Assembly (NCBI GenBank): GCA_027604185.1
Contig: JADGKB010000004.1
Coordinates: 62,001-126,000, forward strand
Direction: 5' to 3'
DNA from: Boothiomyces macroporosus
Lineage: Eukaryota > Chytridiomycota > Chytridiomycetes > Rhizophydiales > Terramycetaceae
DNA length: 64,000 nt
Shown: positions 256 through 64,000 of the stretch, piece by piece
Layout: every line of letters begins with the position of its first letter
How positions within the stretch are numbered: the first letter of the stretch is position 1
Made by a program: the position numbers and the translations under genes
The notes under the pieces: model-generated
Databases searched by the model: none
The model's input: only the letters and a program-made list of their open reading frames with translations
What the model was told of the DNA's origin: nothing

Positions 256-2475
256 ATGGCAGAAGTTAGCGAAACCCCAGCGTACGAAAAAAAGTCATCT
301 TCAGCAGCGCCTTCCGGGTCACCTAATGCTACTCCACGAACAACATCTACAGGACAGAAAATAGGTCCGTATGTGTTGGGAAAGACATTGGGTGTAGGAA
401 GCACAGGTACCGCATGTTTAAACGTCAGGAAGAGTAAAGCTGGCAGTGCATATGGAAACTAATCAAAAAGTAGCAATAAAAATTATCAGCAAAGACAATC
501 CAGAAACACCAGGAAAAAAGAATCCAGCAGTAGAAAAGAAATTGGATAGAGAAATTACAATTATGAAGCTAATTCAGCAGTACGAGAAGAATTAATCAAT
601 AGTCCGAACGTGTTGCAAATTTACGATGTGTACGAAACCAGCCGGGAGTTGTAACTATTCGTTTAAAGATAGATATCTTGTATTAGAGCATGTAGAAGGA
701 GGCGAATTATTCGATTATCTCGTAAAGAAAGGCCGCTTATCAGAATCTGAAGCAGTCCAGTTTTTCCAGCAGATAATTTTTGGAGTAGAGTATTGCCATC
801 GGCATCTAATATGGTAATTAATATTTGATTCAGCCACCGTGATTTAAAACCAGAAGTACTTTTAACTTGATGTAGAACTTGCTTTTAGATAAAGAGTACA
901 ATGTTAAAGTAGCCGATTTCGGGATGGCGAACATGATTGTTCAAAGTAAGATGCTGGAAACCAGCTGTGGGTATGCTTCGTGTAACATAGATCCCCCCAT
1001 TATGCCAGTCCAGAAATCATCAGGGGAGAGAAATATGATGGGAGGACTTCAGACGTTTGGAGTTGCGGGATTATATTATTTGCACTAGTGACTGGAAATC
1101 TTCCGTTTGACGATTCTAATATCCGCCGATTGCTGACAAAGGTTAAAACCGGTGTATACCATATTCCCGAGCATGTTTCTCCAGCTGCGAGAGATTTGAT
1201 CAAAAAAATGCTGACAGTAGAGCCAGCAAGCCGAATAACTGTAATTTTTTCTAACGATAGTTGCAAGAAGTAATGAAGCACGAATTCTTTCTCTCCCGGC
1301 CACCAAAGAACAACCAAACAGTGATGCCATCCATGTTGGAGTCTGATAATGTAATTCGTGCTTACTTTAGTTCAGTCAAGGATATCCAAAGAATTTTAAA
1401 TTTGAAACAGATATTTTGGACTCCTTAACATTGTTGGGGTGGGACAACAGAGACAATTTGATAGAATGTTTGCATGCTGAAGGAACAAATGCAGAAAAAG
1501 TGTTTTACAATCTATTGCACAGAAGAAAATGGGAAATGCTTGAAAACTATAACAGCGAGAAACAGGATAAAGTGGATCCAGATGGTAGGTTTTATTAATT
1601 TCAGGAAACACTCCAGTTAGACGAGCCGATTCCTTCTGCAGTGATAATCTGGATCCTGCAGCCAAGCGTGAACCTACTGGAAACAGAAGGGCGTTTAGTG
1701 AAGGTGGTCCCGCACGTGCACCTACGATGACAATGAAGAGTCCGTTGGCAGCAGAAACCAAATTGTAATTTGTGATTCATAATAGGTCAACCGATTCAGA
1801 TGAAGCAATTTCAAAATCTGGGTCACAATCCCCTCAGAAAACACCTACTATCAAAAAAGCAGTGGGCAGCAAGCGCAAGGGACCTTTGGCAATTAATACC
1901 ATAGCGAATGGTGAAGCTACAGAGCCATCACCAGTGTCTGCTTCATTGAAAAGCCCAGCGATTGCAAGCGCTTTTGCTGCAATTGGCTTGGGAACGCCTA
2001 AATTCCATCGTAAAGGTAAGGAAAGAGTAATTCTAGGAACACTGGCATCTGAAGTTCCAAGCTCTCCTGTAATCACAAACACTCCTAAAACAAGTTGGTT
2101 CCACAATATTTTCAACTTTAAGCCTGATACCTATTATTTGGTTAGTCAGGCTCCGCTAGCTGAAACGCTTGTACAAACTGAAGAGTTGTTGAACACATTG
2201 CACATCAGCTTCAAGCCTGGAGCTCCGGGAGTATTGAAATGCAAATTTGACTCTGATGGCTCTTCAGATACTGATGTCGCCAGCACTGAAACTAAGGGGG
2301 TAAAGTTTAGAATTGAGATTGTCAATGACGAAGAAGATGCAAATAAACTGCGCGTGCAATTAATTCATCAACAAGGTAGGCAAATGCACTGACACTAGGT
2401 GCGTTTTCGATATTCCAGGCATTGGTTGCCAAGATGCAAACAAATTGGTTAAGTAGGGAAGCTCAATCATCGTAA
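256..2475 (+). CDS. BRSK/SAD (Gin4/Hsl1-type) serine/threonine kinase
   Basis: Protein kinase of the AMPK-related BRSK/SAD family, which in animals and fungi links polarity and cell-cycle control. Splicing gives 662 aa. Introns are 407-428, 580-602, 651-672, 814-833, 856-875, 971-990, 1241-1260, 1351-1370, 1585-1604, 1765-1785 and 2376-2398. Visible parts: Gly loop GVGSTG and Lys68 (VAIKII), HRDLKPEN split by two introns, DFG, and an [14 protein letters not shown] activation loop with the Thr phosphorylated by LKB1-type kinases. A UBA-like segment follows ([18 protein letters not shown]), then a Ser/Pro-rich linker and a KA1-like C-terminus. All key catalytic residues are present. The ATG at 256 is the first in frame. 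Family is sure; the exact orthologue is not. Confidence 0.93.
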
Positions 2476-2541
2476 AGTAATATATTCATTAGACAATTCA
2501 AAAATTTAACTGTTATCAATTTTATTAATAGCGTAGAGTAC

Positions 2542-3930
2542 TTACAAGCGGACTGGTGGCAGAAGCGATTGAGATCTAGCAGAGAACCCGGATCTTGGCC
2601 TGCTAACTCTCGATTCTCTATCGTTTCCTCCTCGAAGTGGTTCGCAAATTGCCATTGGGAATATACCTTCAGCGCCAGAAGTAAGATTTTGTCCAGTTGC
2701 CCAGCCTATTGTTAACTTATTTTTACCATCATCAAATTCTTCGAATACGGCAATGATGTCGCCAACGCGACAATCCATTTCGTCGTCCATGCCAGCATCG
2801 TAGTCTTCAAAGACTTGGACTTCATTTCCTCTATCGCCGCCTTGAGGCTGATAATAATCAGGATCGTCTTGAAGCTCACTGAAAGTGTTCAACTTGGCAG
2901 CAGGAGGCAGTTGAATTGGGCCAGTAGGCATCTTTGGTGGATCGCTCTTGAAAATGGTACTGGCACGGATGGTAGTGAACAAACTTGATCTTGGCTTTCC
3001 ATTGGAAACTGGGAGATCTGGTGCTTGGTTGTTTCCGGCAAAGAATGAAAAGAATTTGGATTTGCTCTTTGTAGCTCTTTGAGGATTGTAAGCAGTAGTT
3101 GGACGCTGTCCCATCTTGGACAGTCTTTGATAAATGAGGAAAGCAATACCCAGTACCGCCAAGACACCAGCAACAATCGATGAGATAACCCATACATTGT
3201 TTGCAGGTGCAAGTAAAGACAGTGGAGGCGGGGCAGCGGCAGCTGCAGCCATTACACAACAGAATTCATTAGGGTTAGCAGCACAGAATGCCTTTGTCTC
3301 TGCAGGACTCATGAAACCACAAGCGAGGAATTCAGCCTTTGTACCATTAATACATTGGGATCCTGGCTGAGCAGCAGGGTTGGAATTCAAGCTGTTGCAG
3401 AAATCATTGAGATTTGTGGTAGCACCACCACCAGTTTGCGCAGCAGTTCTGGCAGCAGCAGCAGTAGTACTTGGGTTGGCATCACAAATTGAAGCGTTTG
3501 ACAAAAGACTTGAAATTGACTTTTGATGGGCATCACAAGTAGAGGCGCACAATACTAAAGGTGGAACAGAAGTGTTCTTGTATTGTGATTGGCATTGACT
3601 TGCGGAGGCTTCAATCATCTATATTAACTTGATTCTTACGAATGCGCATAGGGTAGAGTATGGGAACCTAATACCAGCCCCGTTAAAGTTTGGACATTGA
3701 TATACTTGTTGAAACTGTTGAACGTTTGATTGAACTCCTTCGCTTAGAGAGTCCAAGTAAGAGTCAAGCGATGTCAAATCCTTGAATTCATTTGAAGGCA
3801 GAATAGCTATGATTAGTTAGTAGTTACAATACGCATCCATTCCAGCACAGTTTTTACTTCCAGCTAATGATATACATTGAGGATTGCTCTGGCCATATAC
3901 AGTGAGCAATAAATATGAAATTAAAATCAT
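2542..3930 (-). CDS. Secreted-ectodomain membrane protein with C-terminal SH3 domain (Fus1-like)
   Basis: 448 aa after removal of two 21-nt introns (3619-3639, 3807-3827). The order is a signal peptide (MILISYLLLTVYGQS), a Cys-rich and Ala/Thr-rich ectodomain, one membrane helix (VWVISSIVAGVLAVLGIAFL), a basic cytosolic linker, and an SH3 domain. The SH3 shows the ALYDY-like VFEDYDAGMDDE, the acidic RT-loop region, GWATGQN and the GIFPMAICEPL end. The architecture resembles fungal Fus1-type surface scaffolds, which act in polarity and cell fusion. Ligand and partner are unknown. The ATG was chosen because it gives the signal peptide and lies upstream of both introns. Confidence 0.82.
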
Positions 3931-4507: not shown

Positions 4508-5948
4508 ATGGGAGCAATTGAAGAAGGAAGCGCCAAAGTTGGTGCGTTTCTGTATTACCTATCCTTCCTCACAGTCATCGGAGCATCGCTAAGTTCCTTT
4601 TACACTATATTTCTACACTTGAAGAATTATCGCAGACCGGATTTACAAAGATTAACTATCCGGATTCTAATAATGTACCCATTGATGACCATAGGATACC
4701 AATATATGGAATAGCTTCGCTAGTATCCCTGTCGTCTCATAATTTAGCGTTTTTTGTGGATACTGTCAGAGACGTTTACGAGGTATGCTTGATCTAAGAA
4801 AGGCGTTTGTCATTTATTCATTTTTTACGTTGTTGATCAATTATCTGGATGGAGAGAGGGCATTGTTGGAGCTTCTTCAACACCGATTGCGGATACACCA
4901 CATTTGGCCATTCAATTATTGTTTCCGACCACTGGATGTAGGATTTGTTTGTAACCATAGATGAGCAACCCGGAAACGTTCTTGAGGATCAGACAGGGTG
5001 TACTACAATTTGTGGTGCTAAAGCCTTTAGTCGCGGTAATGATTATGATTCTCAAAGCCGCGGACAAGTATGACGAGGGGTATATAGCAGTAGGATCCTC
5101 TTATTTGTGGCTCAGTCTAACCTATAATATTAGCGTTATGCTTGCCATGTATTGTTTGGTTCTATTTTACCTTCAATGTAGCTTAGATCTGAAGCAATAC
5201 CGTCCAATGCCAAAATTCATTTGTGTAAAGAGTATTATTTTCTTGACATTCTGGTAATTCTAGTTAATTTAGGCAGGGGCTGCTGATTGCTTTCTTTACA
5301 TGGGCAGGTATAATTACAGATGGGGATATATATTCCAAAAACAACATAGCACAAGCGTTCCAAGACTGTTTACTTTGTTTGGAGATGCCGTTATTTGCCT
5401 GGATGCATTGGTATGCGTTCCCATGGACTGATTATGATGACAGTCGACTGTCATCAAGACTTCAAATTAGATATGCAATTCGAGATTGTCTGGGAATAAG
5501 AGATATTATTTTAGATACAAAAAAGACCTTTTCATTCGGGCCATACGGAGCGATATATTTGGAAGATTCTGACGAAACTTTGCCCTTTAGAACACCTAAT
5601 TCTCCAAGAAGATATGTCTTGAATGACGAAAGAACAGATATAAGGGTTGAATTGGATGAAGAAGTAGAGCATCAATACGCACTAGCTAGGGAATTAACCT
5701 ATGGTGATCCAAAGTTTCCAGTGTTTGTTCATGAAAATCCAGCATTCCATCACCCACCAGAGATTCAAAACAAAATGAACAAGAGTGCTCAAGAATTCTA
5801 TGCCAAAGTAGGCAATACGAGTACGCAGGCTTCCAGATCTGCAGATATAGAGGAGCATATTGATTTGTGGCAGTCTGATGAAGAAACAGAGAACCTAATC
5901 CAGCCGTCTAATATCAAATCAGAAAAGGGAAAGAATCGATTAAGATAA
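4508..5948 (+). CDS. TMEM184/LAZ1 (DUF300, Ost-alpha-like) membrane protein
   Basis: 452 aa after splicing at 4675-4694, 4783-4802, 4938-4960 and 5254-5272. Family signatures appear in order: LKNYRRPDLQRLTIRIL, the spliced IPIYGIASLVSL, VDTVRDVYEAFVIYSFFTLL, FLRIRQGVLQFVVLKP, YNISVMLAMYCLVLFY and FICVKSIIFLTFWQG. Seven membrane segments are followed by a hydrophilic acidic tail. TMEM184 proteins sit in endomembranes and the vacuole or tonoplast, and the group is related to organic-solute transporter alpha. The transported substrate is not known. The start is the first ATG giving a family-like N-terminus. Confidence 0.9.
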
Positions 5949-5967: not shown

Positions 5968-6371
5968 TTATAATTTAAAATCTTGATTTAACGAATTGGT
6001 CCTCGTAAGTGCAGTCTCAGGTTCTCTTACAGAGTCTGTGCTGAAAGAAATAATTGAACTACTGTCTTTGACTGAACTGGAATCGTTAATACCAGTTTCC
6101 ATATCAGACAATAAATCATCCTTTTCATTTTCCACTATATTCCTGTATATCGCTGATTGAATTGGATTGTCTAAATCCGCTTCGATATAATCTGGCGGAT
6201 AAGGTTTGTACGGCGGTAGTATGCTGACTAGAGAAGATCGGTCCTTGTACTTTGGGGGTAATGATCTCTGATACTTTACAATGCTGAATATACAAACTAC
6301 ACAGGCAAGCAGGACACCTGAGAATATAATCTGGGTTAGCAATGACTTACCAGCGCTGTTGATTTGCTCAT
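5968..6371 (-). CDS. Small single-pass membrane protein, unknown
   Basis: 127 aa after removal of a 20-nt intron (6331-6350). The N-terminus (MSKSTALIIFSGVLLACVVCIFSIV) is a signal anchor. A short basic stretch follows, then a Pro/Tyr-rich motif (LPPYKPYPPDYIEADLDNP) that could bind WW or SH3 domains, and a Ser/Asp-rich tail. It is convergent with TMEM184, with 19 nt between the two stop codons. Splicing restores one clean frame across the helix, which supports a real gene. I do not recognise the family. Confidence 0.65.
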
Positions 6372-6875
6372 GGTTTTACCAAAGGCGTCATGGTATGTCA
6401 GCGTTGTTTGGTTGTTAAAGTTTTGGTATCCAGACATTTAACCACAAAGTTCCTATCGGCCTTTAAAAGGTTTTACTCGGGGGCCGTCATATACATTGCT
6501 TTGGTGAGGATCAGTGCACAAAGTGGAAAACAAAGTAAAAGCTATCGAATTATCCGCGAAACCAATAGTATAGTGAAGGGCGATGCGTACCGGTTCTATT
6601 ACAAGTTTATACTGTTTTATTTGGGGTTTCTTTTATATTTCATGGTATCACCTGACAAAAGAAAGGTCGTACAAAACACGTTTGATTTGGAGTTTAAAAA
6701 AGCTACAATTTTGTGTTTTTACATTCAGAAAGACTTCTGCCAAAATTTATGATTGTTGCCAGAGTTCAAAGCTGAACACCTCATAAAATCACCTGATTTC
6801 TTAATTTTGATTGGTCAATTATTTGAATGATTGTGTGGCGCAAGTATAAATAGTGATGCTCATGATTTCTAGATA
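6372..6875. other. Intergenic stretch, one doubtful 120-codon frame
   Basis: A plus-strand ATG frame at 6390-6752 is open but rich in Phe/Tyr/Lys in AT-rich DNA and matches nothing known. The rest is non-coding. The last 35 nt hold the TATA element of the HNH gene. Confidence 0.35.
6845..6852 (+). promoter_or_regulatory. TATA box of the HNH gene
   Basis: TATAAATA lies 23 nt before the ATG at 6876. If transcription starts about 30 nt downstream of TATA, the mRNA has almost no leader. Confidence 0.5.
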
Positions 6876-8161: not shown

Positions 8162-12422
<4,261 letters not shown>

Positions 12423-12887: not shown

Positions 12888-13851
12888 TTAGAAATGCTTT
12901 GATTTAGTAAAAGATGAAATTGAGCTGGAGTCCTTTGTGAATAAATTGAAGCGACGAGATTGAAGCGGATTTGGAGTACTGTTTCTAGCGTTGAACTGTT
13001 GGCGGATTGGACTTTGGCTTTGCGATCGTAGTTGGCTTGAGGATTTTTGACTGAACAATGACGGATAGCCATTCAGCTGTTAGGCAGCAATTACCTTCTT
13101 TTGCGCAAAAGAAAACTGATTGTCCAAGTGATTTTGAACACTGGTGGTGTCTCGTTCAATATTTGCTACATTGTCGTTCTTGCCAAGTGGAATCTTTCGC
13201 TTCAATTTGTCATACATGGCCTGTTGTCAACTAAGCTTACCTGCAGTTTCTGAAATTGTCGGCTCTTTTCTGCGTACTGCTCAGTCAATTCATGATGGCG
13301 ACGCCTTTCCATTTCGCGCTCTTTCAACAGCCCTGCTTTAGCTGGTAAACACCTTTGTTTTTATCATTCATGGCTGAATTAAAGGATTTTACCTGCAAGT
13401 TCTTGGTTGGCTTCGCGAATTAGCTGCTGCATCTTTCGATCGACATCATTGCACTTTTCATTCAACCCTTTCCTAACAATTTCCTGGTAAGCTATTTCTT
13501 GCGTGGTTCTTTTTAGTTTGATCTTACTGGTAGACCCAAAAGCTGAGTGCCCTACTACAAATTTCGGCAATGAGTTCTGGACGCAATCCGGACAACACGC
13601 TCTAACATTACATTCTATTACTGATTTATAGTCTTCAGTGGGATTCAAATCAGTAATGACTACATCATCCCTACATTAATCAATACCAACCTTTGGGTGA
13701 GGTTCGTTTCGCACGCTGGACATATCATTGCTTCTTGGAAATACTTTTGTCCGCATTCCATACAAAAGATATGACTGCATGTAGTCACTACCGCTTTGTT
13801 AGTAACTTGCTTTCTACACTGTAGGTTATTGCAGCGAAGGTGAAAATCCAT
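12888..13851 (-). CDS. HEI10: Hei10/CCNB1IP1-type RING E3 ligase (meiotic crossover factor)
   Basis: 288 aa after splicing at 13671-13690, 13374-13392, 13333-13352, 13221-13240 and 13077-13094 (the last only 18 nt). The N-terminal RING reads C-x4-C ... CSHIFCMECG ... MICPAC, the HEI10 form. DLNPTEDYKSVIE, a long coiled coil (EREMERRRHHELTEQYAEKSRQFQKLQAMYDKLKRK) and a Ser/Gln-rich tail follow. Hei10/Zip3 proteins designate meiotic crossovers along the synaptonemal complex, so a sexual cycle is implied. The start is the ATG directly before the RING; it lies 43 nt after the DGAT2 stop. Confidence 0.85.
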
Positions 13852-13894: not shown

Positions 13895-15059
13895 TTAGGC
13901 AACAAATCTCAATTCCTGAGTACGATTGGTGTGGAATTCATCTTTGAATTCATCATACAAATCTTGAATTGCTTTGACGTATTTCTGGTGTAACTCGTCA
14001 ATTTGCTCTTCAGTAGGGTGATCTACCCTCTTAACTGGAATTGGTCTTCCAACTATATTCAGTCCAAACTTACCAACAGTGTATAGGGGCACTCGCTTTG
14101 GAATGGCGATACCAAATCTTCCGATAAATAGAGGTGCTGCACTTTTTAATACAGCTTTGAAAAAGTTGTGTAGCGGTTGAAAGGCGGGATGGGTTATACG
14201 ATGGAACAATTCATTTTCACCAAATCCAATGACAGGAACGAGATGCGACCCTGTTGCCAAGGCAATCTTTGCAAACCCTTTGCGCTTTAACAAAACTAAA
14301 TCCAAAGTTCCTGGAATGAGAAATAGATACCTTCAGTCATATGTTTGAATTCTTCTGCACCCCCTAATGCGATAATCATAGCAGTCCCTGGTTTACCATT
14401 TAACAGCCGCCTTTTGATAGATTTAGATTCACAAGATCCGGAACCTAAACTGAGGATATAATCTCTCCATATAGGGATCCAAAAGTTTGCTGGTAAAGTA
14501 TTCATGATAATGTCAATGCTATATTAGCCTAAAAATACCCAGGAAAGACAGTGGCAATAGCACTATTGAATACAACATTTGCAAATAATGCAATCGCATA
14601 AACACCTATCGTTAAATCAAATCAACCATGTGGGTGATATCCGATGATATACTTTTCATTTGGATCTAAATCACAAGTCTTGATTAGTTTACCAGGAAAG
14701 TAAGCTTTGAAAGGAGTCCAGATAGGGCTATATCGTACGAAATCTCTTATCCAAGGAATCGCTCTTCCGTTGATTGGGCCTTTTCGATCGTACCACATCC
14801 AGCCGTAATATCCAACGATCAAGTATCTGCTCCACGGAATGTTGATAAAGCAGTAGACAAAAGTGAAAGGAACAACCACTAGAAAGAAGATGAACATCCA
14901 TAACCACAACACCACTGATAGAAACTGTAGTTTCTTTTCGATAAAGGTTGGATTGGGGTAGTCTTCTGGTATAGCCTGATATTTAGGCTTTCCCGCCTTC
15001 TGTTTTGGTTTGTAATCTGCTTCTATAGGTGCATCTTTGGCAAGCGGCTCTTTGGTCAT
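13895..15059 (-). CDS. DGAT2: Diacylglycerol O-acyltransferase type 2
   Basis: ER enzyme making triacylglycerol from diacylglycerol and acyl-CoA. 367 aa after splicing at 14606-14626, 14519-14538 and 14311-14330. A Lys/Pro-rich N-terminus is followed by a hydrophobic hairpin (LSVVLWLWMFIFFLVVVPF), then the catalytic HPHG in KYIIGYHPHG, split by an intron inside the Gly codon. GGAEEF, KRKGFAKIALATGSHLVPV and the conserved FGENELF follow. Family length and motifs are normal. Confidence 0.93.
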
Positions 15060-21400: not shown

Positions 21401-21624
21401 TTATTGCCCAGATTTTTGTTTTTCCTGATATTTCAATAATTCAGCACTTGGTTAGCTTCATCTTACCGCAACTGCAACGAGAATGGATCTTCAAACGAGT
21501 CGTTATCCCAATCCTCAATCCACAACTGGCTATCCATCGTCTCCTTCTGATCCACATTCCAGTCCTGAATATCAAATTCTTGAAACTCGTCATCGTCTTT
21601 AAGGAGCTGTTGTTTATTCGTCAT
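21401..21624 (-). CDS. SEM1: 26S proteasome subunit Sem1/Dss1 (Rpn15)
   Basis: 67 aa after removal of a 20-nt intron (21447-21466) that lies in the conserved C-terminus: FSLQLR joins AELLKYQEK, as in FSKQLRAEL of Dss1. Two acidic/aromatic blocks (DDDEFQEFDIQDW and LWIEDWDNDSFEDPF) are the family hallmark. Sem1 is a flexible linker in the proteasome lid, and also in TREX-2 and BRCA2 complexes. Without the intron the ORF would end at LQLR and look truncated. The stop lies inside AATAAA (21400-21405, minus). Confidence 0.93.
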
Positions 21625-21933: not shown

Positions 21934-22457
21934 ATGCAAATGAATGGAGATTTCGGCTGGCAATTTAGCAACTCTAACCCATTCCTCTTCCAAGAGCCAA
22001 TAAAAGCTGAACAGCAACCACATGTGTATGATTATGCCGAATACCCACTGAGCTTAACCTTTGATCCGACTTATATTCCAGAACAGCCTTTGAAAACATT
22101 TGAACCTAAAGAAAAGGAAATAGATCAATTCGTATGTCCCGAAGATGGCTGTGGAAAGGGATTTAAAAAGAAGTCGGCATTTCAATCACATATGAAGTCA
22201 CATACCGATAGTCCTAAGCCGTTTGTATGTACAATATGCTCTTGGTCATTTAGCCGAAGTCATGGTAATCGATCGTTTATTTAGATTTGAAACGACATGA
22301 GTTTATTCATTCAAAGGACAAGCCATTCACTTGCCAAGGATGTAACAGAGGGTTTTCCAGGAGGGATGCGCTAAAGAGGCATTTGGATACCTGGAAAGGC
22401 CGAAGAGGAACTTGTGGTCAAGCTGCGAATAAGAACAAGGAATATGCGTTGGATTAA
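21934..22457 (+). CDS. C2H2 zinc-finger transcription factor
   Basis: 167 aa after removal of a 20-nt intron (22265-22284) inside finger 2. Three C-terminal fingers are visible: [44 protein letters not shown] and [18 protein letters not shown]. The [20 protein letters not shown] pair is typical of fungal Crz1/Msn/Azf1-like regulators. The N-terminal half is acidic and aromatic, perhaps an activation region. The start is the first true ATG (an upstream in-frame GTG was ignored). Confidence 0.88.
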
Positions 22458-22566
22458 ATCATTTTCTGAATATATTAACATCTTTTATTTTGTAATTATG
22501 GCGGTTTTATAGACAGCTTCCTATGAGATATTTTGTGGTGTATTGATTCGCGCTGAAATAGACATA

Positions 22567-34516: not shown

Positions 34517-34543
34517 CAAGCACGCCAAATTCAAGCTAAAAAT

Positions 34544-40369: not shown

Positions 40370-42062
40370 ATGTTGCAATCCCCAGACACAATAAAACAGC
40401 TTCACACCAATTTGATCAAAATCAAACAGCTTGAAACAATATCGCTTAAGCAATTCAATTATATTTTATCCAATAATACGGAAAAAGCAAACGAAGCCAA
40501 GCATAAAATTCTTGTTTTTGTGTTTAAAAAACTAAATTATTCAGTCAAGGAAATTCCTTCTTATTTAATGAAATACAATACGAGCCTGGATATGCTGATG
40601 AATGATTTGGGTGCGTACCAAAAGATGCTGTCGCTCTTGTTACAGAATGTAGATCAAGATTTATTTTCAAAGACAGATGGGATTGTTGATCCATCAGCTG
40701 TTAGACAACCCAACGAGGTACCCATAGCAGCGGAACCTATAGATGCGGAACCCAAATTAAAAAAACAAGAATCAACAGATAAGATTAAAAGAACAAAGGA
40801 TTTGGATATCAAAAAAATCCTCCTAGCCAATGAATCAGAACCAGAACAGCGATTAGTTAAACTGCAAGAAAAGAGGAAATCTGCTGAAAAGGAACTTAAA
40901 CGAAATTCAATTAATAGAGGTTTCATTCAGACCAAAGTTAAGCAAGAAAAGGAAATGGTGAATATTGAAAAGAGTAATATGCAGAAGCGGCTAGAAATAT
41001 TGGAAAAGGAAAACAGGCTTTTACTGGAAAGAAACAAGTCATTGGAAAAAGAGTTGAATCAGCGAAAAGAGTTTTACAATGAACTTACATCCAATGAGGT
41101 GCATGATTACAAGCAACTTAAAAAGCGGCATTTTATTCTTTTACAATCTCAAATTGTGCAGTTAAAACGGCAGCTGATCGAATATAAGCAACTGATTGAA
41201 AAGAAAGAGACGAGTGTTTACAATGTCCAAGAACAGTTGTTTCTTTTGATTAAACAAATACAGAAAGAAGAAAAAGTAGACTTGGTTAAAAGGCTGGAAG
41301 CGATAGCCAAACATTCTGTAAGATCAGAGCAGGGAATAGACGAGAAAGAGTTTGATTTTCATTCAGAGTTTATCAATCAAGAATTAAAGACTGTAAAAAT
41401 ATCTGACATCATTACTCTCAAAACCAGTCACTTATCCCTATTTCACGTGTCGAAATTACAGAATCAACTGAATGATCTTTATGAAGATCTTTCGCTACTC
41501 AAATCTAATCTAACGATTACTAATGAGTTTATTGAAAAAAGGAATCATGATCTGCAGCAAAAAGTTGATAGAAGCCTGCTGGATACAATGAACAATTTAA
41601 TATCCTTGGGCTGCTTAATACCTACTTGTCCCCTACCGCAACTGCCATTAAAAATTGAAGACGACGATATTCTTAAAGATTTGAATATCACTGATCAGCT
41701 AAAAGAAAAACTAGAAGCAAGGCTGACTAATTTAAAGAACCACTACCAACAAATACAAGATTTAAACGAAAGAAAAACCAATTCCATGGAAACTGAACTG
41801 GAATTCCATCAAAACTTTTACAAGAAATATGTAAGTACTGCTAATCTAGAATGAAATTGTAAAACAAAAGATTTCCAGTAATCAAAAAGAGACACTAGAG
41901 TATTATCACCAGATTAGTGATGTTTTGCAGCCTTTGGTTGAACTGAAATCTGAATTGGAAAGGTTGGAGTGGAAGGAAGATTTAGTTTTCGAATTTTTAT
42001 CTAGATTTGAAAACGTGTTTAACGAAACTGCAGAGCAACTGTCTGCAATTAATAAAATGTAA
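40370..42062 (+). CDS. Long coiled-coil protein, unknown
   Basis: 557 aa after a 19-nt intron (41831-41849) that adds the last 70 residues. Residues 1-90 form a small helical domain; 90-170 is a charged linker; most of the rest is coiled coil (about 170-330, 380-500 and the C-terminus), with a Pro break (PTCPLPQLPLKIEDDD). This shape resembles centrosome, augmin or basal-body components, but no family signature is clear enough to name. It is convergent with WDR92 (49 nt between stops). Confidence 0.75.
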
Positions 42063-42111: not shown

Positions 42112-43229
42112 TTAAATAGAGTTTATTCGAGTAACCATACCTATTTTCACCGTTTGGTCGTACGCAGCAAACACACACAATCCAGCTTTGTCCGGGGACC
42201 AATTGAATGCGCCAACAGGTTGTTCAGCGACGGTATTAGATTGGATCAACTCAACTTTGCCAACTACACCAACATCATGCTTATCTTGTTCGTCTCTCTT
42301 TACTCTTGAAGGTGGATAATGACTAGTTAGTCCAATGCTTACTATTTATACAATTCCAGAGTCCCTGATCCATTACTAAGCATAAACAGATCTCGGTTTT
42401 GAGGCAAGTGTCTGACTAGCCATCCGGTAATATTTGAAACATTTGATTTTTGTGATAGTGCAGTGTATCCTTTTGTTGGATGATGGGTGCGCATATCATA
42501 AACGTGGAATTTGGCCTCTAATCCTGTACATACCAATTTGTTCATTTGGATATCTTTACGATCAAATTCAACAGAACACACACCATTCTTTAGATTGGTT
42601 TCCCAGACTATTTTCATTTGGCGTAAATCGAATAGTTTTAAATCTCCGTTTTCGTATCCTGCTGCAACCATTCTTTCTTGATTGTTGTAGGAATTTCCAA
42701 AAGCTACTGTCCATGGATCGATAACAGCTTCGCCTGGTGCTGGAGCTAATACGGCGACTGGATTTTCAGGCTGTCGAGCATCCCAAATCTTTACAGCACC
42801 TATCTTAAAGTTGAGCTTACCATCTCTGCTTCCAGTCACAATTTCCGGAGGTCCACAGTTGATGGACTTGCCACCCAAGCCATCAATACAATTGATAATT
42901 TGATCATGGGCGGAAAATGAAATATCTGGTTTCTCTAATCGCTCCAAATCCCAAATACTCAATCTACCTCCAAAGTCACCTGTTGCTAATTTTCTGGCCG
43001 CTAAGCTAGAGTGTCCAAATGTACCACACTTGAAAGCGTGTGGTTTTTCTGTTTGGTGGAGATCAGCTATTGATCCACTTGCCAATTGGCATACTTGAAT
43101 AGTTCCCGTTCCGTTTGCTTTCTGCCCCAAGATAACAAATCTAGGGGAAGATGGGATCCAGTGGACGTCATAGGCAGTGTAATTTAGAGATTTAGAAGAG
43201 TGGATGATAATTTGTGGTTTATCAAGCAT
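42112..43229 (-). CDS. WDR92: WDR92/Monad (DNAAF10), dynein-assembly WD-repeat protein
   Basis: 358 aa after splicing at 42800-42820 and 42323-42342 (human has 357). Near-identical stretches to the family: LATGDFGGRLSIWDLE, PEIVTGSRDG then AVKIWDARQP, DPWTVAFGNSYN, GYENGDLKLFDLR, LKNGVCSVEFDRKDIQMNKLV and MRTHHPTKGY. The second intron restores the last WD repeat (FNWSPDKAGLCVFAAYDQTVKI). WDR92 works with prefoldin-like co-chaperones to assemble axonemal dynein. The first intron is 21 nt with no in-frame stop, so an unspliced mRNA would add seven residues. Confidence 0.95.
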
Positions 43230-43556: not shown

Positions 43557-44731
43557 ATGGAAGACACTGCAGAAAGCAACCCAGCACCAGAAAGTCAAAA
43601 GGAGAATGAATTTACATCCGAAGAAGCCGCACTCTTGACTGACCCTAAATTCTTGAAACTTTTGCCAGAGGTAGCTCTCTTTAATATCTAGTCTCAATAC
43701 CTACCATTTTTAAAAGCTGCAGCTGAAGCTATTGCTTCAACCGCTAATCAGCAGCAAGAGGAGGAATTCAGCAATGCTGAAATTAATATACCATCTGCTA
43801 GTTACGATCCTTCACCTCCAGCACAAAGAATCGAGCCTCAGATTGATTTTGGATCTTTCCTCGCCGCACAGCAGCTTATTTCTAGCAGATTAGGGTACAG
43901 ACATATCATTCCTGCCTTGCCTGGACAGATAATTCCACCCGTTGTCAAGGAAGAGCCTGTGAAGAAGATGTATGTTTTGCGAGCTTGTATTAGTTGCAAA
44001 GCCGCCCATGTTGCTTGCGATACCGCACGACCATGTCAGGTAATTATTTATTGATTTAGCGCTGTGTTCGATTAAATAAAGGAGATACATGCAAGGACGG
44101 AGAGAGAAAGAAACGTGGAAGACCAACAAACACTCAAAGAGATCCAAATTCAATTAAACCGCCAAATCCTAGACCAAAGATTTCCAAAAATGCATTTGTT
44201 AAAAAGAAGGATGTCATTCCTAGGCCACCAATTTTACCTAATCCAAATCACAGAACACTCTTACCCAACATGATTCCCTCCAGACCACTATTCCCAATGT
44301 CTCAAGTTACAGCTCCTCCGCCAACCCCAATACCTATACCGCAAGTGCCGCAGATTCCTCAAATGCCACAAATTCCAGCAGTTCCACAAGAAGCACCAGT
44401 TGAATCTGCACAACCTCCAATCACAGATATATACCACCGTATTTTGGCCACTATAATGCCGGAAACAGATCTAGCCAACCTTGGGACTTCTAGCGAAGAA
44501 TTCCTCAGTGCAATCCAAGCTCTCTCTCTCCTCATGCCATTAAATGCTAACGGAGGTAATTTCAATTTCATTTTAGAACCCGATCTGACATTTTTGCAGT
44601 CTTTGAAGCTACCTGCTGAAGGAGAAGAGCACCAAGAGTTGCACATCCAACAACTGCAAGAACAGCATTTGTTGGAGCAGCAAGCAAAGATGAATGCACA
44701 AAATTATGAAGATCAGAATAATCACGAATAA
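43557..44731 (+). CDS. Zn2Cys6 (Gal4-type) transcription factor, Ert1/AcuK-like
   Basis: 377 aa after splicing at 43672-43692 and 44040-44059. The binuclear cluster RACISCKAAHVACDTARPCQRCVRLNKGDTC has spacing CX2CX6CX5CX2CX8C, and the AH...CD...RPCxRC form resembles Ert1/AcuK regulators of carbon use. A basic AT-hook-like tract follows (KKRGRPT). The middle is Pro/Gln-rich (PIPIPQVPQIPQMP) and the end Gln-rich. The second intron lies between the fourth and fifth Cys of the cluster. No fungal PAS or middle-homology domain is evident. Confidence 0.88.
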
Positions 44732-51748: not shown

Positions 51749-52479
51749 ATGATTATTGATTGTAAACAGGACGATGATGAGCATCGGAATTACTTGCAAA
51801 TGCCACAAAGAAAACACGGATTTCAGTTACCATTGCATATCCAACAGCTGTTTACGTTCTTTTACATGCTATACTCTCCAATAATTACACTCATTTTCAG
51901 CTTTCGCGGCGAACCAATCCCAATTGTCATTTATCTCATTTATTATTTAATACTCTACTATTTGGGATATAGACTAATGAAATCTGATCCTGGAGAATTG
52001 GAAAGCCATACTGGACTTTACTGCCATGTTTGCAAGATTAATGTTAATGAGGATGCTTTACATTGCAAGTATTGCAATAAATGTATTAGGTAATGCTTGC
52101 TAACAAGGCGGCTGGATCATCATTGCTTTTATATAAACAACTGTATTGGGTACTATAATTACAAGCTGTACTTGGCCACAATGAGTTTGACATGTATCTA
52201 TTCGCTATTCGAGCTTGGTATGTCTATATACAGTATTCTTTCAGCAAACACGGTCGGAATTGTGTTCTTGAGTATCGAGATATTTCTATCTGGTGTAATT
52301 GCGGGATTTTTGATTTACTTGTTGGGATTACATACCCTGCTCAGTAATCGTCATTAACACAAGGTATCCTGAATGTAACAACACTGGAATACACAAGAAT
52401 GAAGAAAAAGGATAAAGTCGTTCCAGAAAATGAAGAATCCACAGATTTTACTCCAGCATCCGATATCTCCCCAGTATAG
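51749..52479 (+). CDS. DHHC-type protein S-palmitoyltransferase
   Basis: 230 aa after splicing at 52090-52107 (18 nt, one of the shortest) and 52343-52362. Two N-terminal helices, then the Cys-rich domain CHVCKINVNEDALHCKYCNKCIRRLDHHCFYINNCIGYYNYKLY with the catalytic DHHC Cys, two more helices, and the TTxE motif in NVTTLEYTR. The first intron lies between CNKCI and RRLDHHC, so an unspliced reading loses the active site. Small for the family; substrate unknown. Confidence 0.92.
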
Positions 52480-52508: not shown

Positions 52509-52745
52509 TTAAAACCAATTCTTGGCTTTTGGCCCAACGAATTTATCCATACAATTCTTGTACAACTCCAGCTGCTGTGCACATGTTATCAGCGCTTTCT
52601 TTCCTACATCTTTATCCTAGAATGAGGGAATAGTTACCCCATTTGGAGCAGATTCAGTTTCGAAACAGTCAAAAAAGGATTCTGCTACCTTGGCGCACCT
52701 TTTGGTTTTCAATGGAAAGTATGGTGGTAGTGTTTCTTCAGACAT
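52509..52745 (-). CDS. Twin CX9C mitochondrial-type small protein
   Basis: 71 aa after removal of a 21-nt intron (52617-52637). It holds two CX9C motifs: C-AKVAESFFD-C and, after the intron, C-AQQLELYKN-C, the coiled-coil-helix signature of intermembrane-space proteins oxidised by Mia40. No presequence, as usual for the class. It resembles small COX- or complex-assembly factors but I cannot assign which. Neither exon is long enough to be seen as an ORF on its own. Confidence 0.75.
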
Positions 52746-54821: not shown

Positions 54822-56209
54822 ATGAGCACTGGAGATCAAGTACTTTTTACTAACCACAGGCAAATTTTAGGGATGCCATTGAAAGAGCAAAGGCGATAGC
54901 AGCCAAGCTGAAACTGGCTGCTGGTATTGGGATACAAAGGGAAGAACCTGTAAAGCCAGCTCCTCAAAAAGAAAAAAAAGTTGAAATACCAGATTCAAAG
55001 GATGTCTCTGTTTACCAAGCACCAACTACCACTATTGAAATTATTATTCCTTCTCACATGACTGGATTGTTAATCGGAACTGGAGGACAGACTTTAAAGA
55101 CTTTGGAATCATTATGCAAAGTCACCATTAAATTGGCTGAAGGCAAGACTGAAAGTGAAAAGAAAGCTATAGTCACTGGCGAAGATCCTTGTGTTCAAGA
55201 TGCAAAGGAGCGTATTGAAGATATCGTATTTGGAAAAGGAGCTCTGCAAATTCTTTACGGTGGACCAAGTCAGTTGGGACACGAAACCGTTTATATTCAA
55301 GTGCCAGTACATAGAGGTAATTGTTTTTAATTTAGTCGGTCTCGTTATTGGTAGATTGGGGGAGACTATCAAAATATTGCAAGAAAAGTCTGGGGCCAAA
55401 ATCAATGTTGTAAAAGAAGAAAATGATCATTTGGATACTAGAACTGTAGTTGTGTCTGGACCTCCAAACTGTATTGCTACCGCGAAAACATTGATTGACG
55501 AAATTGTTACCGATGGAAGTTTTGCTTCCCAATTCGGTCCTGCTGGTACTTCAGAAGTAATTTACATTCCAAGAGACAAGGTAAATACTATTAATGTTAG
55601 GTAAATTCTTTTTCGCAATTCTTTTTTCTTATTTCAGTACTAATACTTTAGGTTGGATTAATTATTGGTAAAGGAGGAGATACACTTAAAGTTATCCAAA
55701 ACGAATGCAATGTCAGATTAAACATTGATGCGACAGGTGATGTTGGCGGTGAAAGACCTGTTACTATATCTGGTTTGCCTGATTCTATCCAGCTAGCAAA
55801 AGAACAGATTTATGATAGAGTACAAGGTTTGAGAAGAGGTGGTGCCAAAGAACCAGAATATGGCTTTGCGGATTATGGTGTTGCTTACGACTATTCTCAG
55901 TATGATCCTTCTCAATATCAAGGTGACCCTAAAGGTATTTTTTATTAACAAGATTATCAGTATGATCCACAAGCTTATGCGCAGTACTATGCTCAATACT
56001 ACGCCGCCCAAGGGTACACTGTTGACCCTGAAGCTCAGACTCGTGAATGGGATGTTGGCAAAGAACAAGCCGACCGAAAAAACAAATTCAGCGAGCATGA
56101 TGACAGGGCCAACCACGAAAAAAAGAGAGATAGATCTCCAAGAAGAGATCATAGGGACAGAGACCGTGAAAGAGACAGAGATTTTGATCGCAGAGACAAA
56201 CGCCGTTAA
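54822..56209 (+). CDS. Three-KH-domain RNA-binding protein (FUBP/KSRP/PSI-like)
   Basis: 419 aa after introns 54840-54859, 55317-55335, 55581-55651 and 55935-55952. KH1: IEIIIPSHMTGLLIGTGG; KH2: VYIQVPVHRVGLVIGRLGETI; KH3: VIYIPRDKVGLIIGKGGDTL. Each has the GxxG loop. The tail is Tyr/Gln-rich (YAQYYAAQGYTV), then Arg/Asp/Glu-rich (RD repeats), as in splicing regulators. Introns fall inside the KH2 and KH3 cores (R/VGL boundaries). The third intron is the only long one in the window and has an internal AG|GT junction. Confidence 0.9.
55581..55651 (+). other. Exceptional 71-nt intron with internal AG|GT (composite intron)
   Basis: The first 20 nt (55581-55600) have all features of the usual micro-intron (GTAAATAC, TTAAT, TTAG). 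Directly after AG comes GTAAATTC, a pyrimidine tract and TACTAATACTTTAG ending at 55651. It can be removed in one step or as two abutting introns. Use of the first part alone would end translation at the TAG 55649-55651, before KH3. Confidence 0.7.
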
Positions 56210-56701: not shown

Positions 56702-58242
56702 TTAGAATTCGCCAATATCTGAATCTTCGTCCATTTCACTGTCAATAATATTCTTGGCGAATTGTCTCTCTTGTTCAAGTAATTCAGCTGCTTTAGCTAA
56801 TTCTTTCTTGTGTGCGCCGTGAGGGAATCTCATTGCTTGAACAGACTCGTTGTGTAAATTAAGGCAAAAGTTGATTCTCTGATTGAATGCATTCTGCGGT
56901 TCAGTAGTAGAGTAAATATCAATGATTTCCTATTTTTAGGATTTAAAGTTACGTTAGATTTCATTGAGCCACTTTCATGATCTATGGTTGCATCAATTAC
57001 ACCGTCTCTGATGGCTTTTGCAACAATGTATTCGGCATCTTCTTCACAATCTAATTGCAATTTGATGCAAATATCCTTCAATGAAATCTTTGAGTAGGAT
57101 AGACTGATTCTTCGCACCCCAGTCTTGATTACATTGTGACGGAGTCTGGACGTCAACAAAAAATTACCTAAGAATCAAAGTCATGTTCTTGTCAGCATGG
57201 AAAACATCAGAGTGCTTTGCAAGGGCGTCCTGGAATTTTCCTAAATCTCCTTCCCTAACTGCTTGGGTGATTTGTAAATAAGGGACCAATGCCTTTCTTA
57301 AACTTTCTTGTCTAAATAGGGATCTTTCAGGAATTTCACCCATCAACAACTGTACGATGATTGAGAGCTTGTTTGCCTGGTATTAATAGCTTTATACAGT
57401 TTGCTGGAACCCAACGGCAGCCGGTGTTTGTGGTGCCTTTCTGATTGCTTGCAATAAATGACGGTGAGAGGTTGAATAATCCAATTGAATGGCTTTGATA
57501 CGTCCCAAATAGTACATGTATCTCGCAAATTGATTGTTACCGACTGTTTCTGGGAAAACTGCTTTTGAAACCAGTTTGTCTGCTTGATCTATCAAATTCA
57601 AGGTCAAATATATCTTTAACAAAATGTTCAACAGCGTAGCCTAGATATTAATCCAAAAATTGCCTGTGAATCATTGTCTTGACGTAAGGTAGCAGTACGA
57701 TGGGAGGCAATAACAAAGGATTGGATTTGTGCCAAATTTCCGTTAGAGTCATGGAAATGGCTAAAGAAGAAGAACAATTTGGCTTGAATTGGATCCAAGG
57801 TACGGCGATTGAACGTTCTGCTTCGTTCAATCAAATCTGTAACGGTGGTGATTCCTACTTGGTGTTGTTTTTGATCAGACAAGTAAACTACTACCAGGTA
57901 TCCTACAAACAACTCAATTTCAGGGACTCTTTGTTTTCCAGATGGCAATGTGAATTCCACGCCGATACTTGAACATAATTGCTTATTCAATACGGAATCT
58001 ACATAAATCCACAATTACCAAACACATAAGTATCTATTACAATTTTAAGTATTTCTGGCGTGAGCAAATGTCTGTAGGAGCTGGTTTTGCGGAGCGCTCT
58101 TGAAGCAAAGCGAGTTTCCAAGGACGAAACGGATCGCTCCAATAAAGTAATTGTAAATTCGATGTCTTGTTAATTTTATCTCACCTTTAAGAATCGATTC
58201 GTGTGGTTTGTCGATTTGCATTTCCTGATTTTCACCACTCAT
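56702..58242 (-). CDS. RPN3: 26S proteasome lid subunit Rpn3 (PSMD3)
   Basis: 470 aa after introns 58166-58184, 57999-58018, 57641-57663, 57377-57397, 57146-57167 and 56930-56952. Typical parts are [83 protein letters not shown] and the PCI end [21 protein letters not shown]. The third intron begins with GC, not GT. The protein is slightly shorter than human PSMD3 at both ends. The start is 46 nt from that of divergent Gtr1. Confidence 0.95.
57641..57663 (-). other. GC-AG micro-intron (23 nt) in RPN3
   Basis: On the minus strand the exon ends ...GATTCACAG, the intron starts GCAATTTT and ends with TTAATATCTAG, and the next exon is GCTACGCTGTTG. Only this splice gives [15 protein letters not shown], which matches the conserved family sequence. 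It is the only GC donor among the introns found. Confidence 0.8.
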
Positions 58243-58288: not shown

Positions 58289-59224
58289 ATGAAGCGGAAA
58301 GTTCTGTTGATGGGGAAATCAGGATCAGGAAAGACTTCGATGAGGTCAATTATTTTTGCGAATTATATTGCAAAGGATACCAGGAGACTGGGTGCAACAA
58401 TTGATGTTGAATACTCCAATGTTAGGCTGCTGGGCAAGCTAGCTTTGAATTTATGGGACTGTGGTGGTCAAGACGGATTCATGGATAGCTATTTGACTTC
58501 ACAGAGAGAACAAGTATTCAGAAATGTAGAAGTGTTGATATACGTCTTTGATGTAGAAAGTAGAGACGAAAAAGACCTCATTTATTATCAATCCATTATT
58601 GACGGGATGCGAGAAGGGAGTAAGGATGCTCAGGTAACTATTAAATTAATGCTGATTTTTTGCCTAATTCACAAGATGGATTTGATTCAGCAAGACAAGA
58701 GGGAAAAAATATTCAACATGAGATGTAAAGATCTCGCTGAACGGTCCTATCCATTTAAACCAATTGTATTTGCTACTTCCATTTGGGATGAAACTCTGTA
58801 TAAAGCGTGGTCGTCTATCGTGTATTCATTGATCCCAAATGTACAGCACTTGGAGTCGAGTCTAGAAAAATTTAGAGTGCAATGCGAAGCGTCTGAAGTG
58901 ATTTTGTTTGAAAAGGCAACGTTTCTGGTCATTGCCCACACCAAAGAATCTAATAATCCAGACATCCACAGATTTGAAAAAGTCTCGAATATAATCAAGC
59001 AATTTAAACTCAGCTGCAGTAAATCTCAAGCACATTTCCAAACAATGGAGCTGCGCAACAACCAAATGTCGCTCTTCATACAACCACTCACATCAAACAC
59101 ATACATTCTAGTAGTACTATCAGATCCAAATATTCGTATTATATTAACTAACATAGAATCATCTATACCTATTTTGAACATACAGGCTGCCAAAAATCAC
59201 TTTGAAAAAATTGAATTTGAATAA
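58289..59224 (+). CDS. GTR1: Rag-family GTPase Gtr1 (RagA/B)
   Basis: 311 aa, intronless. P-loop [18 protein letters not shown], switch [16 protein letters not shown], switch [21 protein letters not shown] base-recognition motif, and the C-terminal roadblock-like domain. With a RagC/D partner it sits on the vacuole and signals amino acids to TORC1. Length equals yeast Gtr1 and human RagA. The stop lies inside AATAAA (59220-59225). Confidence 0.95.
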
Positions 59225-61540: not shown

Positions 61541-62611
<1,071 letters not shown>

Positions 62612-62653
62612 ATTTTTTAACCCATCACCTACAAATTTTTTATCTCTAAAAAT

Positions 62654-64000
62654 ATGAAGCGAATACAGAGAGGATTCAAATCGTCCTGCATCACTCTAAA
62701 ATTAACAAATCAAGACAAGCCTAGAATATCCTTGAAGGAACGAATGGCGGCTGCCAATCAGCAAAAGAACGCACCAGTAAATTCCTCATTCAATGTGCCA
62801 AAGTTCTATGTCAAACCAAAGGATTTACCTGCAGTGGATTCAACGAATACATCACTCGGAAATAATGCAAAAAAGCCGGAATTTCAAGCACCGTCAATAG
62901 TTGATCAAAATGCTGCATCTGCAAATACACAAAAGATGGATCCTTCAAAATTCAGACTGCCAAATATCAAGACGAATTTCCGGCCTGCTGGAAAATCTGA
63001 AAAGAAACCAGGTCCAGAAGCAGACAGTAGGAGTAAAAGACCTCAGAAACCAAAGCATAAATCTGGAATTAATTCAACTGTAAAACCAATTGATAAAACT
63101 GATAATATAAATGAATCGGAAGATGATCTAGATAGTGGAGCTGTAGCTGAGGATACCCCAATCACAATTGTGGAAGCAGTAGATGACGATTTGGATACAA
63201 AAAAAGTACACAAAAAGGATTTACTGAGAGACAAGGAAAAAAGGCTGAGGGAACTTGAACGAAAGGCTGCAGCCAAGGCAAATGCAAAGACGGTCAAAGT
63301 TAAAGCAAAGAATATCAATATTCCAAACTTTATCACCGTTGCCAACCTTGGTAATTTGCTTGGTGTCAATTATTGTAAATATTTCTAATTTAGTGCACCT
63401 TTCAAAGAAAATGAAAGAGCTAGGATTTGATGACTACCCGCCAGACTATGTTTTGAATTCTGAATTAATTAGTATGATTGCGCTAGAGTACAACTTCAAT
63501 CCTATCATTATGAAGCAAGAAGTAGTTACTGCTGAACCAAGGTTTTAAATTGCTAATATAGACCTGAGCCGGAAGATTGGTCGATATATCCTACACGTCC
63601 GCCTGTCATTACTATTATGGGACACGTAGACCGTAAGTTTCAATTAACATAAGATGGAAAAACGACGCTTTTAGACTCTTTGCGAAAAACATCGGTAGCT
63701 GCTGGAGAAGCTGGAGGTATCACTCAGCACATTGGTGCATTCTCTGTTTTGCTGCCTTCTCAAAAGCGAATTACCTTTTTGGATACTCCTGGCCATGCGG
63801 CATTTAGCCAAATGAGAGCTAGAGGTGCACAGGTTACAGATATTGTTGTTCTCATCGTCGCTGCTGACGATGGAGTCATGCCACAGACTATAGAAGCAAT
63901 TGACCATGCTCAAAAAGCAAACGTGCCAATAATAGTTGCGATCAACAAGTGCGATAAGCCAGGAGTCAATCCAGTACACTGAAACTAAAATTAGAAAAAA
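62654..64000 (+). CDS. IFM1: Mitochondrial translation initiation factor IF-2 (5' part)
   Basis: The gene runs off the window. Introns 63375-63393, 63542-63561, 63633-63653 and 63974-63994. The Arg/Lys-rich start ([11 protein letters not shown]) suits a mitochondrial presequence; a disordered Lys-rich region follows. The IF2 N-domain is [26 protein letters not shown], then the G domain: [21 protein letters not shown] (intron inside the His codon of VDHGKTT), [26 protein letters not shown] and NKCDKP. The final intron precedes only six more bases in the window. Confidence 0.93.

Follow-up and report, generated by a model that had tools for sequence, protein, structure and literature searches.

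Spliceosomal introns of about 20 nucleotides in the chytrid fungus Boothiomyces macroporosus, with no clear reduction in the splicing parts searched

In the assembly of the chytrid Boothiomyces macroporosus (Chytridiomycota, Rhizophydiales, Terramycetaceae; 15,203,306 bases in 216 contigs), a stretch of 64,000 nucleotides (nt), bases 62001-126000 of contig 4 (320,488 bases) and called here the window, carries genes whose reading frames are interrupted by segments of about 20 nt. Are these segments spliceosomal introns, and what kind of spliceosome would handle them? The precedents that we found for introns of this size come from relic nuclei, reduced parasites and ciliates; therefore, whether a cut-down machine is needed was open. 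We are highly confident that the segments are U2-type spliceosomal introns, shrunk to the lower size limit of the spliceosome without clear reduction in the parts tested. Nearly all introns fall in one narrow band under ~30 nt, an ultrashort-intron regime that comes close to the smallest intron sizes on record and is, as far as we found, the shortest for a fungus. An earlier note on this DNA had claimed 29 genes with introns almost all 18-23 nt long, as a genome-wide norm; both claims held up, the second within a sample of 264 kilobases (kb) out of 15.2 megabases (Mb), on which the genome-wide statements rest.

The sample consisted of the window and bases 20001-30000 of each of 20 contigs (C1-C20), 21 stretches in all. 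We counted, without gene models, every GTA followed by YTAAY, 1-6 bases and AG, and compared the counts with dinucleotide shuffles. At 19, 20, 21 and 23 nt the counts were 74, 85, 54 and 19, compared to 10.8, 11.9, 14.0 and 10.5 in the shuffled sequence. No excess was seen at 18 nt (7 vs 11.6) or at 22 nt (12 vs 11.9), and counts at the remaining lengths from 10 to 60 nt stayed near the shuffled level. Support for introns of 18 and 22 nt thus comes from individual genes and from the gene finder, which in its motif-blind form called one and seven of them, respectively, in the sample. A related motif-pair count over both strands of the 264 kb was flat from 24 to 400 nt (11.4-14.3 per nt, compared to 50.4 at 19-23 nt).

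The motif-blind gene finder used coding bias and GT..AG termini only, with lengths from 10 to 300 nt at equal cost (a flat prior) and five decoy pairs as controls; an initial version with a weak background model gave mostly noise and was retrained before use. In the sample, 42 of its 123 introns fell at 18-23 nt, while decoy pairs put in place of GT..AG gave 6, 5, 6, 3 and 2 introns there and produced no length peak. In the other length bins GT..AG never exceeded the highest decoy, and most of the longer calls were noise. When motif scores were added and lengths up to 120 nt were allowed (the ≤120-nt run), 215 of 274 introns lay at 18-23 nt and 59 outside. Thirteen of the window introns from this run exceeded 30 nt; 12 of these were replaced by short introns at or beside the same place, found in a third run limited to lengths of 15-26 nt and GT-AG termini (the 15-26-nt run) or set by hand (57641-57663), and the thirteenth was an intron of 71 nt. 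Such re-examination covered the window loci alone.

The window set, made from the 15-26-nt run and hand curation, holds 87 introns in 29 genes. All are of 18-23 nt (18 nt, n=2; 19, n=18; 20, n=37, the mode; 21, n=20; 22, n=3; 23, n=6), 86 in number, save the one of 71 nt. The hand count in the earlier note had the right range of lengths, and its total was 97, ten more than here. Termini were GT-AG in 86 introns and GC-AG in one, the latter entered by hand since the finder required GT-AG. Because the set was built with a 15-26-nt limit and hand work, its length spread is a description and not an independent test; independent evidence on length comes from the motif counts, the motif-blind finder and the ≤120-nt run. 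Four 21-nt introns without an in-frame stop (2706-2726, 30501-30521, 42800-42820 and 59136-59156) come from the 15-26-nt run alone. In the window models the density was 1.6 introns per kb of coding sequence, and extrapolation from 87 introns in 64 kb gives about 20,000 genome-wide. A tendency of stop-less introns to avoid lengths of 3n was weak (among 84 introns of the 15-26-nt run, an in-frame stop occurred in 18 of 22 of length 3n and in 39 of 62 others), and therefore we draw no claim from it. The genes are listed below; where a line names no source, the introns were found in both the ≤120-nt and the 15-26-nt runs.

256..2475, plus strand, BRSK/Nim1-type kinase: 11 introns, 407-428, 580-602, 651-672, 814-833, 856-875, 971-990, 1241-1260, 1351-1370, 1585-1604, 1765-1785, 2376-2398 (15-26-nt run and hand curation).
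2542..3930, minus strand, membrane protein with SH3-like end (by eye): 3807-3827, 3619-3639, 2706-2726 (the last weak, 15-26-nt run only).
5039..5948, plus strand, multi-pass membrane protein, 3' part: 5254-5272.
5968..6437, minus strand, membrane protein: 6331-6350.
8617..11278, plus strand, importin/exportin-like (name by eye; model without the 5' part): 8862-8880, 9069-9087, 9154-9173 (15-26-nt run only), 9468-9486, 9642-9661, 10178-10197, 10423-10443, 10975-10994, 11177-11196.
11316..12422, plus strand, dihydrouridine synthase (hand-finished; PF01207 at residues 8-291, 160.6 bits): 11404-11423, 11487-11507, 11650-11669, 12077-12096, 12329-12349.
13379..13761, minus strand, RING-like protein (partial model, by eye): 13671-13690 (15-26-nt run).
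13895..15059, minus strand, diacylglycerol acyltransferase-like (name by eye): 14606-14626, 14519-14538, 14311-14330.
21401..21624, minus strand, Sem1/DSS1-like (name by eye): 21447-21466 (15-26-nt run).
21940..22457, plus strand, C2H2 zinc-finger protein (by eye): 22265-22284 (15-26-nt run).
22567..23588, minus strand, SLC35-like transporter (name by eye): 23212-23231.
26408..27898, minus strand, serine hydroxymethyltransferase (name by eye): 27686-27706.
28145..31485, minus strand, Nup133-like (name by eye): 31239-31257, 30892-30911, 30501-30521 (weak, 15-26-nt run only), 30247-30267, 29981-30000, 29526-29544, 28913-28933, 28740-28759.
31547..32754, minus strand, NADH:flavin oxidoreductase (≤120-nt run, hand-finished; PF00724 at residues 22-374, 239 bits): 32163-32183, 31776-31795.
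36020..36630, minus strand, ARL2 GTPase (hand-finished; 302 bits to ARL2 residues 1-183; 3 of 3 junctions ungapped): 36436-36454, 36250-36269, 36149-36168.
36657..37056, plus strand, small protein: 36931-36949.
37073..38716, minus strand, protein with PG-rich repeats (flagellum-type, by eye): 38295-38313, 38146-38165, 38033-38052, 37810-37828, 37698-37716, 37352-37370, 37213-37231 (the last in the 15-26-nt run only).
38955..39231, minus strand, small membrane protein: 39084-39102 (15-26-nt run).
39264..40273, plus strand, mitochondrial-type tryptophanyl-tRNA synthetase (name by eye): 39546-39565 (15-26-nt run and hand curation).
40370..42062, plus strand, coiled-coil protein (by eye): 41831-41849.
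42112..43229, minus strand, WD-repeat protein (by eye): 42800-42820 (weak), 42323-42342 (15-26-nt run).
43557..44731, plus strand, Zn-cluster-like protein (by eye): 43671-43691, 44040-44059.
51749..52479, plus strand, DHHC palmitoyltransferase (hand-finished; PF01529, 78.6 bits): 52090-52107 (18 nt, just 5' of the DHHC motif), 52344-52363.
52509..52745, minus strand, small CHCH-like protein (by eye): 52617-52637 (15-26-nt run).
54822..56209, plus strand, triple-KH protein (hand-finished; three KH_1 stretches, 157 bits summed): 54840-54859, 55317-55335, 55581-55651 (71 nt), 55935-55952.
56702..58242, minus strand, PSMD3/Rpn3 (hand-finished; human PSMD3 matched with 427 bits, and five of the six junctions are ungapped): 58166-58184, 57999-58018, 57641-57663 (GC-AG), 57377-57397, 57146-57167, 56930-56952.
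58289..59224, plus strand, Rag/Gtr-like GTPase (name by eye): 59136-59156 (weak, 15-26-nt run).
61541..62611, plus strand, ethanolamine-phosphate cytidylyltransferase (hand-finished; 298 bits to a PCYT2 structure; 3 of 4 junctions in ungapped blocks): 61625-61644, 61740-61762, 62031-62051, 62313-62335.
62654..63982, plus strand, mitochondrial IF2-like (name by eye; runs off the window): 63375-63393, 63542-63561, 63633-63653, which restores VDHGKTT (15-26-nt run).

Nine of these genes were finished by hand and hold 38 introns, 37 of them of 18-23 nt, and each spliced gene comes to a whole number of codons, as had been claimed before (ARL2 is cut before its stop). Twenty junctions in four proteins (the kinase domain, PSMD3, ARL2, the cytidylyltransferase) were placed on alignments to solved structures, read by eye, and 18 of them lay within ungapped blocks; the kinase domain matched BRSK2 with 355 bits and all seven junctions ungapped. 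The two exceptions were residue 69 of PSMD3, beside an eight-residue gap, and residue 150 of the cytidylyltransferase, where an aligned block ends. The dihydrouridine synthase, flavin oxidoreductase, DHHC and KH proteins, once spliced, matched their Pfam models, and PSMD3 of Boothiomyces sp. JEL0866 has a length identical to that of the window PSMD3, with 97% identity.

Proteins deposited for B. macroporosus itself matched the window PSMD3 and kinase at 96% and 97% by local alignment, with mismatches where the gene models differ. The deposited models hold 14 of the 17 introns compared (5 of 6 in PSMD3 and 9 of 11 in the kinase), so that the introns are already in databases without, as far as we saw, being described. 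The three absent ones are all of 23 nt, and one is the GC-AG intron. In the deposited kinase model a 20-nt intron at 530-549, false by our reading, appears to be followed by read-through of the true 23-nt intron 580-602, which yields a frame-shifted stretch. Annotation thus suffers at such intron lengths: in two genes, three introns were lost and, by the same reading, one false intron was gained. The deposited kinase of Boothiomyces sp. JEL0866 lacks just the 16 residues between two window introns, as if a small exon had been skipped, which is suggestive only. That of Globomyces sp. JEL0801 carries a ten-residue insert, GDLFLFFDIS, exactly at the last intron of the window kinase; it would fit a retained 30-nt GT-AG intron, and other Rhizophydiales may have short introns.

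The internal spacing of the introns was measured by tabulating the second A of each YTAAY by its position from the donor G and its distance to the final G. With about 2 expected per cell, position 14 had 56, 46 and 11 sites at distances 5, 6 and 7, position 15 had 11, 35 and 29 at distances 4, 5 and 6, position 16 had 12 and 9 at distances 5 and 6, and position 17 had 5 at distance 6 (weak); positions 13 and 18 were at chance in this table. The cells form an island of 214 YTAAY sites against 17 expected, a branch motif near YTNAY upstream of AG as in U2-type introns. Other branch forms were also in excess in the island (YTGAY 48 vs 23, RTAAY 47 vs 17, YTAAR 44 vs 17). In the 86 short window introns, among branch-like motifs 4-8 bases from the intron end, the putative branch A was at position 14 in 37, 15 in 35, 16 in 10 and 17 in 4. 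The distance from branch A to the final G was 4-7 nt (mode 5-6), in agreement with the form proposed earlier, GTA(A/T/C), then (C/T)TAA(T/C), with AG close behind. A branch A at 14-16, rarely 17, and 4-7 nt from there to the end are two short rulers that together set the intron length, and this sharp two-part spacing ruler is new. Donors at the 214 island sites (~17 expected by chance) were weak, with A at +4 in 59% and G at +5 in 41 of 214; in most organisms the +5 G forms pairs with U1 and U6. Upstream of the branch the T content is 45%, compared to 28% in exons.

Could the short class be a majority in coding sequence only, with a separate population of longer introns, for example in untranslated regions or unsampled genes? 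The survey covered introns within coding sequence, and the triple-KH gene does contain the 71-nt intron 55581-55651. The flat motif-pair rate from 24 to 400 nt speaks against such a population, as do the long gene-finder calls, no commoner than with decoys, and we judge it unlikely. The 71-nt intron opens with a complete 20-nt intron form, GTAAATACTATTAATGTTAG, directly followed by GTAAAT, and ends with a 15-nt intron-like sequence, GTACTAATACTTTAG (55637-55651). The 15-26-nt run listed 55581-55600 and the 15-nt candidate 55637-55651 in its place; the 71-nt form was retained because it restores a KH motif. In stwintrons and recursive splicing, an outer intron is split by an intron inside it or by a splice site that is regenerated. 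Since GTAAAT stands right behind GTAAATACTATTAATGTTAG, a 20-nt first step would regenerate a donor, and the 71-nt intron may be removed in steps or alternatively spliced.

What machinery does the assembly encode? Of eleven components searched, nine were present: the U1, U2 and U6 small nuclear RNAs (snRNAs), SF1, U2AF65, U2AF35, Slu7, Prp18 and SMU1. The pairing boxes of the three snRNAs are intact and canonical. U1 has the 5' end AUACUUACCUG; U2 was found at two loci, with 142.2 and 135.4 bits (contigs C80 and C178) and the pairing box GUGUAGUAUC; and U6 scored 62.2 bits with its ACAGAGA box (contig C59). The two U2 loci differ by eye in their 3' halves, and beside the U6 gene lies an apparent inverted pair of near-identical genes, with a G+C content seemingly (also by eye) above that of the remaining genome. 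SF1 was obtained as a full-length model of 467 residues with KH and zinc knuckles (by eye), and U2AF65 as a full-length model with both RNA-binding RRMs and the C-terminal UHM. Since the U2AF65 family search also weakly matched two bacterial control genomes, its top match was checked against solved U2AF65 structures. U2AF35 was found as four matching pieces (piecewise matches, not a full model), Slu7 with 426 bits to human SLU7, SMU1 with 472 bits to human SMU1, and Prp18 as a 337-residue model. The Slu7, SF1, U2AF65 and SMU1 models themselves hold introns of 19-24 nt (lengths limited to 15-26). The idea that a branch so near AG had led to the loss of Slu7 and Prp18 was rejected, as both genes are present.

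The earlier note had proposed inspecting U2AF, SF1 and the snRNAs, and SF1, U2AF65, U2AF35, U1, U2 and U6 were all found and look canonical. Its expectation of an unusual geometry of U1, SF1/U2 and acceptor recognition was borne out for the geometry, and nothing found so far points to altered parts. That these are spliceosomal introns of a fungus agrees with the termini, the branch motif, the restored conserved proteins, and the snRNA and splicing-factor genes of the same assembly.

Several points weigh against this reading. The motif-blind finder was insensitive, with 42 short introns in 264 kb compared to ~360 expected from the window density, and it is from coding logic that we infer removal of the segments from mRNA. 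The ruler was measured on YTAAY alone, though other branch forms exist; its branch A was assigned by motif, and because either A of YTAAY is possible, all positions could shift by one. At position 14, counts were also raised at distances 9-13 (8, 3, 6, 7 and 10, compared to ~2); these are probably later AGs behind true introns, and they are not separated from the island. The survey covered introns in coding sequence, and the component search covered eleven targets. U1 scored 68.8 bits, just below the Rfam cut-off of 69.5. U5 snRNA was not found with Rfam RF00020 or in a search for its loop that allowed one mismatch, nor was RED_N matched, both in searches without a positive control.

As neither search had a positive control, no loss is claimed, and the spliceosome may yet be reduced or odd. 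The introns could then be real and ultrashort, and the parts found an incomplete core of a reduced or altered spliceosome like that of mikrocytids or Stentor. The unfound U5 and RED would fit, and there are parallels: mikrocytids combine introns of 16-17 nt with 17-19 spliceosomal proteins (PMC10245619), and in Stentor, whose introns are of 15 nt (PMC12862383), SF1 and both U2AF subunits were found but Slu7 and Prp18 were not detected (PMC9505925). In B. macroporosus, however, nine of the eleven components are present, including the two undetected in Stentor. Loss of Slu7 and Prp18 is therefore not seen in the assembly, and broad reduction, probed here in part, is not apparent either; we assign the reduced-spliceosome account a rather low probability.

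Sequencing or assembly errors typically break frames, but one would not expect them to come with a common set of donor, branch and acceptor motifs in constant spacing, to peak at 19-21 nt across 21 stretches, or to restore a homologous protein upon exact GT..AG removal, and we consider this explanation exceedingly unlikely. Ciliate-style elimination of DNA from an expressed genome would suit short, AT-rich, precisely bounded segments inside genes, but ciliate eliminated elements are bounded by TA repeats, whereas these segments run from GT to AG and contain a branch motif. Given also that B. macroporosus is a chytrid and has splicing genes, we consider elimination exceedingly improbable.

Taking the segments as U2-type introns, how might they fit the spliceosome? 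U6 would pair with about the first six intron bases. U2 would cover some seven more, including and flanking the branch A, which for an A at 14 are positions 9-15. About two bases would then be left between the helices, which would explain position 14 as a hard floor imposed by them. With 2-5 bases between the branch A and AG, the usual place for a polypyrimidine tract has no room, and the 3' end would be taken as the first AG behind the branch. U2AF, though kept, would either read the U-rich stretch upstream of the branch or work not on RNA but by contacts with SF1 and SF3b. A distance of ~15 nm separates the U6/5' splice site helix from the U2/branch helix in human B complexes, and the donor-to-branch minimum was estimated at roughly 52 nt (PMC6692369); in human short introns whose tracts are truncated, SPF45 takes over from U2AF (PMC8363638). 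We suggest tentatively, leaning slightly against it ourselves, that a fungal spliceosome which is essentially complete (SF1, both U2AF subunits, Slu7 and Prp18) cannot physically accept a branch A before position 14, and that this fungus sits on that floor for nearly all its introns. If only about two free bases lie where the U6 helix abuts the U2 helix, the human-type gap of ~15 nm could not be kept, and the B stage would be passed collapsed or skipped. In yeast, Slu7 and Prp18 gain importance as branch and acceptor lie farther apart. That B. macroporosus has both argues for a further role, or they may simply not be lost when all distances are short.

A literature search, with most subscription papers outside its coverage, found no fungus described with introns near 20 nt among the matches listed, as the earlier note had supposed. 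Among the closest known systems are the nucleomorphs of chlorarachniophytes (Bigelowiella natans, Lotharella oceanica), intron-rich like B. macroporosus and with mostly 18-23-nt GT-AG introns and a few GC-AG (PMC4035089). They are, however, relic endosymbiont nuclei of a few hundred kb with a mode of 19 nt, compared to a 15.2-Mb nuclear assembly of a fungus with a mode of 20 nt. In the mikrocytids Mikrocytos mackini and Paramikrocytos canceri, with 224 introns predicted (PMC10245619), the introns are likewise very uniform and at the short limit. Those organisms are parasites whose spliceosome is strongly reduced and whose intron sequences are highly conserved, whereas B. macroporosus has 1.6 introns per coding kb and degenerate donors.

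Ciliates also have short introns genome-wide (the median in Paramecium bursaria is 24 nt, PMC12862383), and Stentor, like B. macroporosus, keeps SF1 and both U2AF subunits. Ciliates belong to another kingdom; Nyctotherus introns of 21-29 nt have no branch motif found in that source (PMC2633312), and Slu7 and Prp18 were not detected in Stentor (PMC9505925), while B. macroporosus has all three. Among fungal relatives, the microsporidian Encephalitozoon cuniculi has short introns as well (22-76 nt, PMC3629993). In Yarrowia lipolytica one nucleotide separates the branch motif from the 3' splice site in 72.5% (PMC13309789), and the nearly touching motif is shared with B. macroporosus; the Yarrowia introns are far longer (size classes from 100 to >700 nt are discussed), have a GTGAGT donor and are compact at the 3' end only. 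A survey of 644 fungal genomes called the Cryptococcus mean of 63 nt relatively short, and its density table rests on two Chytridiomycota (PMC8476143). Human introns dependent on SPF45 or on SMU1/RED face the same problem, a short donor-to-branch distance or a truncated polypyrimidine tract (PMC8363638, PMC6692369). The human lower limit of ~50 nt from donor to branch compares to 13-15 nt in B. macroporosus, which keeps both U2AF subunits though no tract fits between branch and AG.

Several other window genes were modelled without introns. The gene at 17119-18819 has a Macro domain (Pfam) followed by a region sirtuin-like by eye, for which no Pfam sirtuin match was found at 1e-5. An HNH_2 endonuclease that begins, by eye, with a coiled coil lies at 6876-7898, and an RNA ligase (RNA_lig_T4_1) at 48918-50132, besides a fungal tRNA ligase at 18887-21070 whose nearest named relatives are from Boothiomyces sp. 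JEL0866 (83%) and Terramyces sp. JEL0728 (75%). Tandem gene pairs, transporters and aspartic proteases by eye, are at 32956-35944 and 44990-47432.

B. macroporosus, which we take to be a free-living chytrid, handles introns of ~20 nt with nine of the eleven checked parts in place. In this fungus nature itself offers a test of the smallest intron that a spliceosome without reduction can manage. Direct tests become possible of the minimum intron size, of what the polypyrimidine tract and U2AF contribute, and of whether Slu7 and Prp18 are needed when branch and acceptor lie very close together.

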